From: Lachnospiraceae bacterium MD308
Lineage (GTDB): Bacteria > Bacillota > Clostridia > Lachnospirales > Lachnospiraceae
Reading direction: 5' to 3'
Assembly: GCA_010206225.2 (NCBI GenBank)
Contig: VIQU02000037.1
Coordinates: 1-38,326 of the forward strand
DNA: 38,326 bases
Numbering within the stretch: the first letter of the stretch is position 1; the number at the start of each line of letters is the position of its first letter. The translations under genes were made by a program, and so were the position numbers. The notes under the pieces were generated by a model. It did no database searches, had not been told where the DNA came from, and was given only the letters and a program-made list of their open reading frames with translations. Positions 32,688-38,326 of this stretch are shown here, one piece after another.

Positions 32688-32957
32688 TCATATTGTTTTA
32701 TCTTTATCTATAATCAGATCCGGATTTATCCTTAACAGATATTTATCAAACTGCGGCACTGTAAAATCTATCTCGCCATAAGATGTCGCATAGATAAATC
32801 CTTTGTGGACAAGCTGGCTCCGAAGAGGTCCTATTGATTTGAGCGTCGTTCCCATTTGATTTGCCACCTCAGCAATTGTACAGGGCAAATCCCCGCATCT
32901 AACCATACCAAACATAAAGTCCTTCTCTCTCTTCGTGGCTCTGTCATACCGGACTTT
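32688..32957 (-). pseudogene. C-terminal remnant of an AAA-family ATP-binding protein
   Basis: The frame reads VRYDRATKREKDFMFGMVRC, GDLPCTIAEVANQMG, SQLVHKGFIYATSYGEIDFT, VPQFDKYLLRINP. This is the winged-helix tail that follows the ATPase core in a group of Firmicutes AAA ATP-binding proteins with an Orc1/Cdc6-like tail. The Walker motifs and everything before the tail are gone, replaced at about 32957 by integrase sequence in another frame. There is no start, so it is a remnant. A natural terminator is still present behind it. Confidence 0.65.
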
Positions 32958-33348
32958 AAAAAAACTCTTAATATCTTCTGCTCATCTCTGGTCATTACAC
33001 GTCTTTCTTTTTCCGGTGGATATTTGGGAAATTGAGTAAGGAGAACCGGGTTCTTCTTAATAATTTCATTCTTATAAGCCTGATTAAACAAATCATTCAG
33101 TATAACCTTAAGTCTGGACAGAGTCTTTTTACTCAATCTTTTTGATTCTTTATTCAGCAATCTCTGTATATGCTCCGCACGTATATCTTTTACCATGTCC
33201 AAAACCATTTATCAACCGTAATATTCTGCTCTCGTTCATATATTCCATGACGAAGCTCATATTTCATATCTTCCATTTTCATTGACAGCTTTTCTACATC
33301 ATCATCGTATAAAGTATAGCGTTCTCCTTCGTATTGGAAACGCCTCAT
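32958..33348 (-). pseudogene. Tyrosine integrase, N-terminal remnant with internal deletion
   Basis: ATG 33348 opens MRRFQYEGERYTLYDDDVEK, MKYELRHGIYEREQNITVDK, WFWTW and then a stop. In the next frame the sequence resumes at KDIRAEHIQRLLNKESKRLS, FNQAYKNEIIKKNPV and ERRVMTRDEQKIL. The join lacks the roughly 30 residues that normally lie between WFWTW and the DIRPEHIQ motif of Tn916/phage-like integrases, so a small deletion shifted the frame. The catalytic Arg-His-Arg-Tyr domain is missing altogether, cut at the ATPase remnant. A mobile element once sat here and can no longer move by this enzyme. Confidence 0.75.
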
Positions 33349-33926: not shown

Positions 33927-34442
33927 ATGGGAAAACAATCTACGAGAGCGAACAAAAACATTTACCAGCTATGCCGTGAAGCGCAAGGCTTAACACGCGA
34001 AAAAGCCAGCGAGAAGATGTCCGGCATATCTGCTTCCAGAATTGAAAAGATTGAATACGAACTTCAGGAGCCTACTCCTTACGACATCACACAAATGGCT
34101 GACTGTTACAAAAGACCGGATTTATGCAATTACTATTGTTCCCACAAATGCAGCATTGGCGACCGTTATGTGCCCGCAGTTGAAATATCCGATTTATCCA
34201 ATATCATTTTAGAAACCATTGCCAGCCTGAATGAGATCAATCCTCTTACCAGCCGTCTTATCCAAATTACACGAGACGGAAAAATCACTGATGATGAAAT
34301 CAAAGATTTTGCACTTATCACCAAAAAACTGGACGAGGTATCTCTTGCAATTGATTCACTGAACCTATGGGTGGATAAAACTGCCAGTGAAAATAATATT
34401 AATATTGACCTGCTAGATTCCGAGAAAAAGAAGTTGAAATAA
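33927..34442 (+). CDS. XRE-type helix-turn-helix protein with C-terminal helical domain
   Basis: Residues 10-60 form the helix-turn-helix (NIYQLCREAQGLTREKASEK, SASRIEKIEYELQEPTP). A Cys-rich segment NYYCSHKCSIG follows near residues 68-78 and then a long helical region (SDLSNIILETIASLNEINPL, DGKITDDEIKDFALITKKLD) predicted to self-associate. The C-X3-C arrangement with nearby His could bind a metal or be redox-active. It has a strong promoter and a dyad before the ATG. It is divergent from the 46-aa/70-aa genes and convergent with the 138-aa gene. 171 aa, complete. Confidence 0.7.
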   Translation: MGKQSTRANKNIYQLCREAQGLTREKASEKMSGISASRIEKIEYELQEPTPYDITQMADCYKRPDLCNYYCSHKCSIGDRYVPAVEISDLSNIILETIASLNEINPLTSRLIQITRDGKITDDEIKDFALITKKLDEVSLAIDSLNLWVDKTASENNINIDLLDSEKKKLK

Positions 34443-34519
34443 AACATATGGGCAGTGATTAATCCTTCATACAACCCACTGCCCGATGTTTTCACTTAAT
34501 ACGTACTTTCCATCAGATT

Positions 34520-34936
34520 CTAATAATTTTGCAGTTCTCCCAGAATATATTCTACCCGGCGAATCGCTTCTGCCACTTGTCCTCCTGCCTTATTAATCCG
34601 ATCCTGCACCATCCAGTCTACAATGAACCCATCAAAAAACCAGTCTGCAAAAGAAAGGAAATCTCCGGTTTCAATATTCAGATCATAAGACACGCTTACA
34701 TCTCTAAGTTCCCGGCTAAAATTGTGAAGATCATATTTCGCCTGTTCCATATTTCGCTTTGCGTCTCCCATCTTCGATTGTTTTAATGCAGTGGATAAAA
34801 AACCTCCGCCAAACATATCCCATATTCCCCAGTTCCTTGCACTATTCAGATTTTCCTGTGCCGTCCGAAGGCTGTGAAGCGCCTGATTCCCGGCAGCAAT
34901 TGCTTCTTTTTTTTCTTTTTCTAAATCATAAGCCAT
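34520..34936 (-). CDS. Hypothetical 138-aa helical protein of the XRE module
   Basis: I start at ATG 34936 (MAYDLEKEKKEAIAAGNQAL), 9 bases after AAGGAG; an ATG two codons upstream sits too close to the site. The product has a long amphipathic first helix, a Gly-rich turn (GIWDMFGGGFLSTALKQSKM), then two further coiled-coil-like helices (AKRNMEQAKYDLHNFSRELR, GGQVAEAIRRVEYILGELQN) with an aromatic WFFDGFIVDW stretch between. No signal peptide or catalytic motif. It resembles uncharacterised Firmicutes proteins found with XRE regulators, but I cannot name the family. Confidence 0.65.
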   Translation of the reverse strand: MAYDLEKEKKEAIAAGNQALHSLRTAQENLNSARNWGIWDMFGGGFLSTALKQSKMGDAKRNMEQAKYDLHNFSRELRDVSVSYDLNIETGDFLSFADWFFDGFIVDWMVQDRINKAGGQVAEAIRRVEYILGELQNY

Positions 34937-35118
34937 ACTCATTCACTCCTTTTCATTTTTGAGATGATTATAAGTCATATCATCAGTCCAGCAAATATTT
35001 TAATAAAATTATAAAGGAATGAATGATTTTGGTAAACCTTTCCGTTATAGAAATACAAGGCTCCATTCCTCAAATTTAGAGAAATTATGCCTTGTCCTTC
35101 TATTAGCTCCATATATTC

Positions 35119-35776
35119 TTAATCTAATTCTATTCCTTCCATTACTGCCAAAATCTTGTCTGACACTTTTTCCTGCAGATAAACCGGATTTAACTGCCTC
35201 TTAGTATATTTAAGATAACTATTTTGTGTACGCTGAATTAATTGTGCTGTAAAATACCGCTCCCAGCCAAAATATTCTTCACTTTCAATATAATCTCCCG
35301 GACGTTCCAACATCTTCAAGACACTGCTGTCCTCTACTGCTCCGGACATCTTACAACTGCGGCAAAAATATTGGACTTCCCCTGTGCGCTGACACAAGTA
35401 ATCTGTCCTTTTTCACAAATCTTCTAAAAAAATTGAAAACCCGAATTGGAATCCTCTGTGATCACTTTCTCAGGCTTAACCGATTCACGATAATCTAGTT
35501 ATCCGTATTTTGGATAGTATCGGCAAACTCTTTACTCATAACAAAATCATTGCCTTCGTCAATAAATACGATACACTCTCTCATCATAGAAAGCTGTCCT
35601 GCCCACGTCCGTCCCTCCAGAGCAGTACACTCTTTATCACATATAAGCTCGATGGCACTGGCATTTCCATTTTCATAATACTCACGTATCATATCTACCA
35701 GTGCGGTCTTTCCTGTTGCACTGTCGCCGCGGATGGCCGTAATGTTTCTTTTGATTTCAAAATCATACCTGATTCG
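35119..35776 (-). pseudogene. P-loop ATPase of a DUF4869-linked pair, degraded
   Basis: Without a start codon the frame opens YDFEIKRNITAIRGDSATGK, with Walker A GDSATGKT, then the Walker B-like CIVFIDEGN, and stops after IQNTDN at 35495. A second piece (VKPEKVITEDSNSGFQFF, then KICEKGQITCVSAQGKSNIF) and a third in another frame (LERPGDYIESEEYFGWERYF, NSYLKYTKRQLNPVYLQEKV) complete the same protein with a missing middle and at least two frame shifts. The intact homologues I recall are about 270 aa and lie next to DUF4869 genes in Lachnospiraceae. The gene is dead. Confidence 0.65.
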
Positions 35777-36061
35777 TATTCATAATGCAGATATCAAACA
35801 TATCCTCTCCAAAATCCATCAAGTGCCGGAGATTGAACGTGAGATTATCTGTTTCAGAAAGCTTCAAAATCCATTTTGCACAATTATCACCGCAAGTAGC
35901 TACGTTAAATATCCTAGTACGTTCATTTTTCATAAGAATCAATGTTTTCACGCCGCCCGAAAGAGTGTAGGGGCAATTTTTCCCATAACAGGGCTGTCTA
36001 TCACTGCACTATCCAAAACAACCGACTTCCGGACATCTAAAATACAACCGCCACTTCCCAT
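35763..36061 (-). pseudogene. DUF4869-family gene, N-terminally truncated and frameshifted
   Basis: The part from 35951 reads MKTLILMKNERTRIFNVATC, GDNCAKWILKLSETDNLTFN, LRHLMDFGEDMFDICIMNTN, the C-terminal half of DUF4869. Extending upstream gives LSGGV, and then in another frame VVLDSAVIDSPVMGKIAP, the preceding part, joined through a one-base shift near 35975 (in an A- or C-run). The first roughly 45 residues are absent. The 3' end meets the ATPase remnant, in the order known for this pair. Function of the family is unknown. Confidence 0.6.
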
Positions 36062-36200
36062 GCATAGCGGCTTTTATCTCTCATTTTCTACACCACTTTG
36101 ACACCACTTTCTATAAACCCACCATCATCCTTATAAACTAAAAACACCGCACAACCGCCTTAATATCGTATTTTATAGATTCACAAACTATAAACTGCGA

Positions 36201-36284
36201 AATAAACTTTTTCATAATACATGCCGGGAACTGTTTGATGCGGTTACCCGGCATCCTCCCTTTTTATGGGGGTTCAGAGATTCT
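36201..36284. repeat. 85-bp hairpin repeat, copy 2
   Basis: Near-identical to 32499-32583. One stem position (AACTG in place of AACCG) no longer pairs with CGGTT, so this copy has the weaker hairpin. It abuts the truncated 3' end of the nuclease-transposase remnant. A third, 18-bp piece (AATAAACTTTTTCATAAT) is at 36789-36806. Confidence 0.75.
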
Positions 36285-36672
36285 ACAGTACATATATCCG
36301 AAACTCCAGACTGCAAATACTTTTTAAACTCCCGCTGTGAGACAGCACTTATTACTATGATATCATCCCGTTTCAGTATAATCTTTAACAGAAATTCTGT
36401 AGCCGGAATGTTACCGTCAAAGACCATAGACATTAGATCATCGTCAAATAAATCCATCCCTTCATACACCCTTACCAGATCCCCCTCCGGACAATCTTTG
36501 TATGCTCCCTCCATACCGAGTCTGCCTGTTTTTTCTTCGCATACCGTTTTTTCTGCTCAAGGATAACGTTCAGCTTATTCAGTGCATCCCTTTTATTCTC
36601 ATACTGGCTCCGCTCAGAAGTGGACTCTTCAATATCCGGATACTCATTCTGCATGATTTTTCTGAGAATCAA
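36212..36672 (-). pseudogene. PD-(D/E)XK nuclease-family transposase (Rpn-like), frameshifted and truncated
   Basis: The first frame gives MILRKIMQNEYPDIEESTSE, ILEQKKRYAKKKQADSVWRE, HTKIVRRG. After a slip in a run of five G near 36480, the next frame continues DLVRVYEGMDLFDDDLMSMV, FDGNIPATEFLLKIILKRDD, IIVISAVSQREFK. This is the N-terminal part of the nuclease-type transposases common in gut Clostridia. The continuation with the nuclease core and the RARYHSSM segment is missing: the frame instead runs into the hairpin repeat. Not functional. Confidence 0.65.
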
Positions 36673-36842: not shown

Positions 36843-36860
36843 TATACTATAAATAGTATA
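36843..36860. promoter_or_regulatory. Perfect palindrome upstream of the receiver/alarmone-synthetase gene
   Basis: TATACTAT and ATAGTATA enclose AA, an 18-bp perfect dyad 27 bp before the ATG. It contains a TATACT that could be the -10, so a bound regulator would block or position polymerase. No good -35 is visible. Confidence 0.5.
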
Positions 36861-36887: not shown

Positions 36888-37958
36888 ATGAAAAAAATAC
36901 TGGTTGTAGATGATGCCAAACTGAACCGTGAATTATTACAGGACATGCTGAACAACGATTATATCGTTGAGACAGCCGCAGATGGAGCAGAAGCCTTAAA
37001 AAAACTCAGCGCATATCAGGACGAAATATCGGCTCTCCTTCTGGATCTGCGCATGCCTGTATTAGACGGTTTTGGTGTGATCAGAGAAATGAAATACAAT
37101 AATTGGATGAAACAATTTCCCGTACTCATCATTAGCAGTGAAAATGCTGTAGAAATTGAAACACAATGTCTGGAACTGGGTGTGTCGGATTTCATTCATA
37201 AGCCTTTTGAAAGTTCTATTGTTAAACATCGCGTTAAAAACGCAATTGAACTGTTTACCTGTAAGAATCAATTGGAACAGACAGTTGCAGAACAAGCTAA
37301 AACTCTGAAAAAACAGTATCAGATTATTCAGATGCAGGCAGAACAGTTAAGGGAAGCAAAACCATTTAATCAGTTGATGATGGAATACCGTTCTGCCATC
37401 GTAGAGGTCGAGACGAAACTAAAGGTACTGAATGCCGAATTCTCTCAGGAATACAACAGAAACCCTTTTGAATCAATCAAGAGCAGATTAAAGTCGCCAG
37501 AAAGTATCTATGAAAAGCTGGAGCGAAAAGGATTTCCTGTTACAGTAGAAAGCATTCGGGAAAAGCTGTCAGATGTGGCAGGACTGCGTGTCATCTGCTC
37601 ATTTCCTGATGATATCTACCGTATTGCAGAACTTTTCTGTCAGCAGGATGATATCATCTTATTGCGGAAAAAAGACTATATTAAAAATCCAAAACCCAAT
37701 GGTTACCGGAGTCTCCATCTCATTTTAAGCGTCCCCATCTTTCTATCGACAGGGAAGAGATATATGAAAGTAGAAGTGCAGTTTCGCACAATAGCTATGG
37801 ATTTCTGGGCAAGTCTGGAGCATAAATTAAAATATAAAAAAGATGTGAAAGAAACCGACAAGATTGTAGCGCAACTAAAAACTTGCGCGGATTCTATAGA
37901 AATGCTGGATTACCAGATGCAGGAAATCCGCGACAAAATTTATTACTCCAATGAATAG
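36888..37958 (+). CDS. Response-regulator receiver fused to a (p)ppGpp synthetase (SAS-like) domain
   Basis: Residues 1-118 are a complete receiver: acidic pair Asp8-Asp9, phospho-acceptor Asp53 in LLLDLRMP, switch Ser83/84 and Lys105 in HKPFE. Residues 119-160 are a coiled coil (QLEQTVAEQAKTLKKQYQII). Residues 162-350 match small alarmone synthetases such as RelQ: IKSRLKSPESIYEKLERKG, SDVAGLRVICSF with catalytic-type Asp229, NGYRSLHL with Tyr273, VEVQFRTIAMDFWASLEHKL with catalytic Glu296 and Arg300. No HD hydrolase domain. The predicted action is pyrophosphate transfer from ATP to GTP or GDP under control of phosphorylation. No histidine kinase is nearby. TTGGTAAAGAAAT is a weak ribosome site. 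Confidence 0.85.
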   Translation: MKKILVVDDAKLNRELLQDMLNNDYIVETAADGAEALKKLSAYQDEISALLLDLRMPVLDGFGVIREMKYNNWMKQFPVLIISSENAVEIETQCLELGVSDFIHKPFESSIVKHRVKNAIELFTCKNQLEQTVAEQAKTLKKQYQIIQMQAEQLREAKPFNQLMMEYRSAIVEVETKLKVLNAEFSQEYNRNPFESIKSRLKSPESIYEKLERKGFPVTVESIREKLSDVAGLRVICSFPDDIYRIAELFCQQDDIILLRKKDYIKNPKPNGYRSLHLILSVPIFLSTGKRYMKVEVQFRTIAMDFWASLEHKLKYKKDVKETDKIVAQLKTCADSIEMLDYQMQEIRDKIYYSNE

Positions 37959-38029: not shown

Positions 38030-38326
38030 GGTAGTGTAAATTAATTTGTGTTTTTGGAAGAAAATGGCTCCTTTTTGGTAAGAATTAAGATATGACAATT
38101 CTTATAGTAAAGGAGTGTTTTTATGGCAGTTGCAAAGGAGCAGATCCGACAGATTATTTCACAAAACAACATTAACAGCGTATCAGATGTTTATTCTCTT
38201 CTCAAAGAGAGTTTCAAAGACATCCTTCAGGAGCTTATGGAAGCAGAACTGGATGCTACCCTTGGTTACGAGAAAAATCAAAAGGGTGGCTTGCTGACAG
38301 ATAACAAACGGAACGGCCATTCCCCT
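38030..38326 (+). mobile_element. IS256-family insertion sequence, left end (continues beyond the window)
   Basis: The sequence GGTAGTGTAAATTAATTTGTG resembles the terminal inverted repeat of IS256-type elements, and the transposase starts 93 bp inside it. A small hairpin (AAGAATT and AATTCTT, about 38080-38105) lies ahead of the ribosome site. The exact left boundary and target duplication cannot be fixed without the other end. Confidence 0.6.
38123..38326 (+). CDS. IS256-family (mutator-type) transposase, N-terminal part
   Basis: ATG 38123 follows AAAGGAGTGTTTT and encodes MAVAKEQIRQIISQNNINSV, SLLKESFKDILQELMEAELD, ATLGYEKNQKGGLLTDNKRN, GHSP, the characteristic N-terminus of IS256-type transposases (ELMEAELDxxLGYEK). 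The frame is open to the window edge; the DDE catalytic domain lies outside. It appears intact so far. Confidence 0.88.
   Translation, partial: MAVAKEQIRQIISQNNINSVSDVYSLLKESFKDILQELMEAELDATLGYEKNQKGGLLTDNKRNGHSP

Follow-up and report, generated by a model that had tools for sequence, protein, structure and literature searches.

The window, by which we mean the whole stretch of DNA that was analysed, is the entire contig C88 (38,326 bases) within a 4.35 Mb assembly. It carries a gene that joins a receiver, a coiled coil and a small alarmone synthetase in one chain (REC-coil-SAS, Table 1). The frame is single and uninterrupted from its ATG start through 356 codons, and Pfam assigns residues 4-115 to Response_reg (80.1 bits, cut-off 30.2) and residues 199-319 to RelA_SpoT (118.6 bits, cut-off 27). 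The sequence-only reading, which had claimed one intact frame with receiver, coil and synthetase, is borne out, and the residues it named (Asp8, Asp9, Asp53, Lys105, Asp229 and Glu296) sit where it had placed them. The assembly holds three RelA_SpoT matches in all: a long Rel (C76), the fusion, and a frame of 242 aa (C70).

Table 1. Features of the receiver-synthetase fusion gene, in window coordinates; fractions give conservation among aligned full-length sequences.
Feature	Position	Strand	Remarks
REC-coil-SAS gene	36888..37958	+	356 aa
Receiver domain, residues 1-108	36888..37211	+	
Asp8-Asp9, receiver acidic pocket	36909..36914	+	Asp8 31/32, Asp9 32/32
Asp53, presumed phospho-acceptor	37044..37046	+	32/32
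Lys105 of receiver	37200..37202	+	31/32; Arg in L037
Coiled-coil helix, residues 109-157	37212..37358	+	alignment columns, model helix, REC-HD match
RelP-like alarmone synthetase, residues 158-352	37359..37943	+	
Asp229 = SaRelP Asp107 (Mg)	37572..37574	+	32/32; alignment; PMC5794853, in part
Pro268 = SaRelP G-loop Pro146	37689..37691	+	32/32; alignment; PMC5794853, in part
Tyr273 = SaRelP Tyr151, guanine nucleotide binding	37704..37706	+	32/32; alignment; PMC5794853, in part
Glu296 = SaRelP Glu174 (Mg)	37773..37775	+	32/32; alignment; PMC5794853, in part

Several smaller features surround the gene. An inverted repeat, TATACTAT-AA-ATAGTATA, occupies window positions 36843-36860, 27 bases upstream of the start of the fusion gene. 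One base of it is changed in L059, while L060 and L089 lack its second arm and keep a TATACT element that is perhaps a -10 box. Between a phosphofructokinase-like gene and the fusion gene lies a reverse-strand fragment (32831-33208) with weak matches to phage-type integrases; the related locus L005 has an integrase-like frame at the equivalent place and no room there for the frames of window 33927-36514. At 38123-38326 the start of an open frame, which we take to resemble an IS256-type transposase, is truncated by the contig end, and a repeat at this place may explain why the contig ends there.

Our alignment of 32 full-length sequences, including two second copies from the same genome, shows how closely the arrangement is kept. 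Thirty-one of the sequences are 67-96% identical to the window's protein, and no insertion or deletion falls between residues 46 and 318 in any of the 32. Asp9, Asp53, Asp229, Pro268, Tyr273 and Glu296 are invariant, residue 83, the receiver switch position, is always Ser or Thr, and position 8 is Glu in one sequence and otherwise Asp. Homologues lacking Asp229, Glu296 or the acceptor Asp, which the sequence-only reading had named as evidence against its proposal, are thus absent from the alignment. Averaged over sequence pairs, identity is 0.78 in the synthetase, against 0.63 in the receiver and 0.62 in the coil. Between the window and L005, dN/dS is 0.135 in the receiver, 0.059 in the coil and 0.032 in the synthetase; across all three parts it spans 0.016-0.135 where dS could be estimated, several of the dS estimates exceeding 1 and being rough. 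The dN/dS values and the same architecture in other genomes rule out a chance or broken fusion peculiar to one assembly. Judged by these 32 sequences and their indel-free stretch, the REC-coil-SAS architecture is beyond chance.

The database search for a receiver joined to RelA_SpoT that had been proposed with the original observation found the same architecture in at least 30 genomes besides the window's own. With the window protein as query, full-length matches, its own genome included each time, were recovered from 3 of 61 relatives of that genome, from 13 of 397 genomes of the family (spanning 13 genera), from 3 of 392 genomes of the order, each of which belongs to this family too, and from 1 of 391 genomes of the class, namely its own. 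The order and class samples, searched at E 1e-95 or better, thus gave none outside the family. A near relative (G003) has the gene at 96% identity. A named genome collection contributed at least 19 full-length loci (L059-L076 and L089) among the 80 matches listed, the other 61 covering the synthetase with at most part of the preceding region. These matches are mostly from Lachnospiraceae; one record (L067) is titled Clostridiaceae and some have no family name, so the family limit rests on the family, order and class samples. Counting duplicates once (L059=L005, L062=L035, L073=L042), we arrive at 31 carriers, the window's genome among them. Homologues from Petralouisia muris and IMSAGC_019 are included; the former points to the mouse gut, and the IMSAGC and MGBC records are presumably from mice as well.

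In a quick tree of 132 synthetase domains, all 30 fused ones lie together on the same side of a single branch (support 93, where the starred level is 95), adjoining the stand-alone synthetases L077, L079 and L078. This distribution fits a single fusion event. On a tree of Rel the presence or absence of the fusion needs 11 changes, a scatter that fits later transfer or loss. We rejected a phage or plasmid gene as a description of the locus, as no full-length copy was found in matching records of either kind: no single place covered 80% of the query among the 31 plasmid records and 37 phage records with matches, and in viral contigs two loci matched the synthetase part only and none at full length. 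Two other fusions were seen along the way. In another genome of the family a RelP-like synthetase is fused to a GDSL lipase/acylhydrolase domain (L007:1149-2600, +, 483 aa), and at L279:811-2460 (+, 549 aa) a family 8 glycosyltransferase domain is fused to a RelP-like synthetase; together they suggest that in this family the synthetase has been combined with partner domains of several kinds.

The synthetase of the fusion is RelP-like, not RelQ-like, and the earlier label of RelQ-like should be replaced on grounds of sequence, fold and site residues. Among solved structures, those of S. aureus and B. subtilis RelP come nearest by sequence, before RelQ, and Foldseek ranks the chains in the same order by fold. 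RelP (SAS2, SasA, YwaC) and the fusion have the same magnesium, ATP and guanine-binding residues and the same G-loop proline. Lys202, Ser206, Lys210, Asp229, Tyr273 and Glu296, equivalent to such residues in the S. aureus enzyme, are present in 32 of 32 sequences and His312 in 31, and Arg213 (SaRelP Arg91) in 90% or more. In the available text of PMC5794853, S. aureus RelP Asp107 and Glu174 coordinate magnesium; the expectation that Asp229 and Glu296 would serve catalysis agrees with their alignment to these two residues throughout the 32 sequences. In RelQ (SAS1, SasB, YjbM) the G-loop has His111 where the fusion has Pro268, and the allosteric pppGpp site consists of Phe42, Thr44 and Asn148 (residues from PMC5794853, in part), which align with Ser196, Lys198 and Asp305 of the fusion. 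Ser196 is Ala in 8 of the 32 fusions, and Lys198 and Asp305 are constant. Stand-alone RelP likewise has no RelQ-type pppGpp site, and the fusion differs from it by a receiver and a coil placed before the first helix. A RelQ-like identity can therefore be set aside, given the G-loop proline, the missing pppGpp-binding residues and the greater nearness of RelP.

This assignment bears on how the enzyme may be controlled. According to PMC5794853, RelP is active at all times and its G-loop is ordered, which would leave the receiver as the source of control. The case for such control is stronger because the nucleotide route through pppGpp is missing from the synthetase.

The same assignment bears on whether the protein is instead a toxic synthetase or defence protein, acting by tRNA pyrophosphorylation or making ppApp, in which the receiver has replaced an antitoxin. 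PADLOC does match residues 137-308 to the candidate defence family PDC-S33 (80.9 bits), a family that, we would guess, may include ordinary synthetases as well. The closest kin by sequence and, among solved structures, by fold is RelP, whose ATP-site and G-loop residues are kept. In 20 loci no recurring neighbour gene of 70 aa or more could be put forward as an antitoxin; the only neighbour group present in more than three of them (ORFs of at least 70 aa) consists of ABC-type ATPases, so labelled by reading their sequences, at nine loci. With the lack of a full-length copy in the matching plasmid, phage and viral-contig records, these observations make a toxin or defence role very unlikely.

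The input half of the protein has relatives of its own. A comparison with nine further receiver proteins of this order or family gave identities of 39-47%; the best three, of REC-HD type (L151, L152 and L157), are 40-47% identical over residues 2-158, coil included. Their match stops at residue 157-158, where the synthetase starts, while matches to stand-alone synthetases mostly start between residues 120 and 160, a few of them earlier; the two limits together put the junction near 145-160. The output of L151 is an HD domain by Pfam, HD being confirmed for this one of the three, and we take regulators of this kind to be of HD-GYP type. These response regulators of the same bacterial family and the fusion have in common the receiver, the coil and the Gln positions of the coil, and differ in output, an HD domain in one and an alarmone synthetase in the other. 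Receiver and coil thus resemble, as far as sequence can tell, the input module of receiver-HD proteins set on a new output.

With heptads assigned by eye, the a positions of the coil are hydrophobic (Val133, Leu140, Ile147, Leu154), the d positions are Leu129, Gln136, Gln143 and Gln150, and e position 151 is often Ala or Thr. In DgcR, a receiver-linked diguanylate cyclase, weak d and e positions permit a change of coil register on pseudo-phosphorylation, and linker lengths in its class come in steps of seven (PMC8041772, available text). The Gln d-layers of the fusion coil recall these weak, conditional positions (PMC8041772, in part). By the same analogy, a fixed linker length is what a DgcR-like register mechanism would need, and common descent would give the same.

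An AlphaFold2 model of the monomer shows a receiver, a RelP-like core and a single helix, residues 109-189, that comprises the coil and the first synthetase helix. Mean pLDDT is 84.4 but drops to 71 for residues 141-150 and 68 for residues 151-160; with a pTM of 0.52, the placement of the domains is unsettled and the continuity of the helix is a prediction. In structural alignment with 6ewz the model matches over residues 151-353, which places the final coil heptad over the beginning of helix 1 of RelP.

The gene-context check suggested with the original observation gave a divided answer. Direct neighbours were read in 29 of the 31 carriers (L075 and G1032 left out), and a kinase gene adjoins the fusion in L070 only, the other 28 being without one, so that no kinase neighbour is conserved. 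In L070 a hybrid histidine kinase gene lies upstream, its stop codon 7 bp before the fusion ATG, and encodes 1047 aa with PAS, HisKA, HATPase and two receiver domains by Pfam. L063 has a response regulator downstream and then a kinase, and in a few other carriers kinases stand two or more genes away. Adjacency makes the L070 hybrid kinase a candidate partner, a lead and no more.

Relatives of this kinase accompany the fusion more widely. Among 397 family genomes, at E of at most 1e-260, they occur in 13 of 13 carriers and in 27 of 384 non-carriers; over all carriers the count is 29 of 31 (14/14 and 15/17 further ones, the latter including the query's own genome), the exceptions being the genomes of L060 and L065. 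Among the 14, the match breaks off near residue 780 in five copies. The relatives stand beside varied other genes (31 loci). In five carriers they measure 887-928 aa (L270:2061-4793, L271, L272, L273 and L274), Pfam finding one receiver domain in L270 as against two in L070, and one relative (L162, in G006) is split by an in-frame TAG, which marks either a broken gene or an assembly error.

We compared the kinase and the fusion as pairs on a tree built from the Rel of 78 genomes, a selection meant to include nearly all of the kinase-positive genomes found and leaving out the carrier G006, G035 (no Rel match) and three second Rel-like copies. The pairs never ran in the opposite direction, with median p of 0.0625 and 0.031 for the two directions and a range of 0.0078-0.5, a result that agrees with an association of fusion and kinase without being decisive. 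Control kinases make this association less telling. Among 80 genomes, an unrelated hybrid kinase of the window's genome (L275) was found in 12 of the 14 carriers; of the non-carriers, it was present in 23 of the 27 that have a relative of the L070 kinase and in 4 of the 39 that lack one. It was also found in 14 of the 17 further carriers, 26 of 31 overall. The two kinases are not strictly comparable, L275 being the looser match, its near full-length matches being mostly 47-60% identical as against 62-80% for the L070 kinase, and at 60% identity or more it is left in 7 of 31 carriers. Full-length matches to a second control (L276) occur in 4 of the 14 carriers, in 12 of the 27 non-carriers with a relative of the L070 kinase and in none of the 39 without one. 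The L070 kinase stands out a little, and shared ecology or descent can explain the co-occurrence. As the carriers tend to have hybrid kinases in common, the partner cannot be picked out by co-occurrence, nor did neighbourhood single one out.

These results are where a different view of the receiver finds its footing, namely that it serves for dimerisation or docking and not as a phosphorylation switch, or receives its phosphate only from small phosphodonors or from many different kinases with no dedicated partner. That 28 of 29 carriers have no directly adjacent kinase gene, and that no partner could be singled out, would both fit. The acceptor Asp nevertheless never varies and the other residues of the phosphorylation site hardly do, and orphan receivers are common where hybrid kinases are numerous. 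On balance we regard a receiver of this kind as rather unlikely.

The analysis shows a protein with intact, conserved parts, a linker of fixed length, a synthetase of RelP type and a distribution that fits one fusion origin. The interpretation offered with the original observation is supported in part. We consider it likely that the protein is a response regulator with a RelP-type synthetase as its output, in which phosphorylation shifts the coil, changes (p)ppGpp output and releases the enzyme. A histidine kinase would phosphorylate Asp53; by analogy with DgcR, phosphorylation would then change the packing of the receiver dimer and shift the coil that continues from receiver helix 5. In the model the coil helix runs on as the first synthetase helix, by which route the shift may reach the catalytic core and alter (p)ppGpp output. 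Since activity is reported to be the default state of RelP enzymes, the receiver is most likely inhibitory when unphosphorylated; it would restrain the enzyme until phosphorylation releases it, the sign being the least certain step. Against this explanation count the lower conservation of receivers and coils relative to the synthetase and the co-occurrence of the L070 kinase, which is not clearly specific. The lack of a conserved kinase neighbour, the low model confidence where coil and synthetase meet, and the single exceptions at positions 8 (Glu) and 105 (Arg) weigh on the same side.

The opposite sign deserves consideration. Phosphorylation may switch the synthetase off, the enzyme being active by default and the kinase signalling good conditions. 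A synthetase that is always on and has no rapid means of being turned off would, however, be expected to slow growth. The always-active RelP with its ordered G-loop (PMC5794853, in part) and the invariant Pro268 speak for an off-switch, whereas DgcR, the closest studied analogue with a coil, is activated by pseudo-phosphorylation (PMC8041772, in part). We think the off-switch doubtful, and prefer release on phosphorylation.

Each part of this protein is known already; what is new, as far as the open-access literature was searched, is their combination and the route implied by it. No report of a fusion between a receiver and an alarmone synthetase appeared among the papers listed by those searches, in keeping with the sequence-only reading, which knew of no characterisation of such a route. 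DgcR and PleD, which are REC-GGDEF diguanylate cyclases, likewise have a receiver, a helix and a nucleotide-messenger synthetase in one chain, but the GGDEF synthetase fold is unrelated to the alarmone synthetase fold. Their GGDEF domains make c-di-GMP as a dimer, whereas RelP and RelQ form tetramers (PMC5794853, available text), and the coil register shift upon pseudo-phosphorylation is described for DgcR (PMC8041772, in part). Small synthetases are also joined to domains other than receivers. In Mycobacterium smegmatis the partner domain is RNase HII. The fusion seen in actRel is with DUF429 (PMC3153485, in part), and neither 'receiver' nor 'two-component' occurs in the main text of that article.

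We give slightly better than even credence to the more specific proposal that, in this Lachnospiraceae clade, phosphorylation of the receiver moves the coil that leads into helix 1 of the RelP-type synthetase and so replaces the pppGpp allostery present in RelQ and missing from RelP. If true, sensor kinases, perhaps the PAS-hybrid kinase of L070, would have access to the stringent response by a route that bypasses transcription, the ribosome and the sensing of starvation by Rel. A receiver in a RelP-type enzyme would link sensor kinases directly to (p)ppGpp in gut bacteria, and would place alarmones beside c-di-GMP as a second messenger issued by response regulators. In these bacteria a sensor kinase may directly switch the ppGpp starvation alarm on or off.
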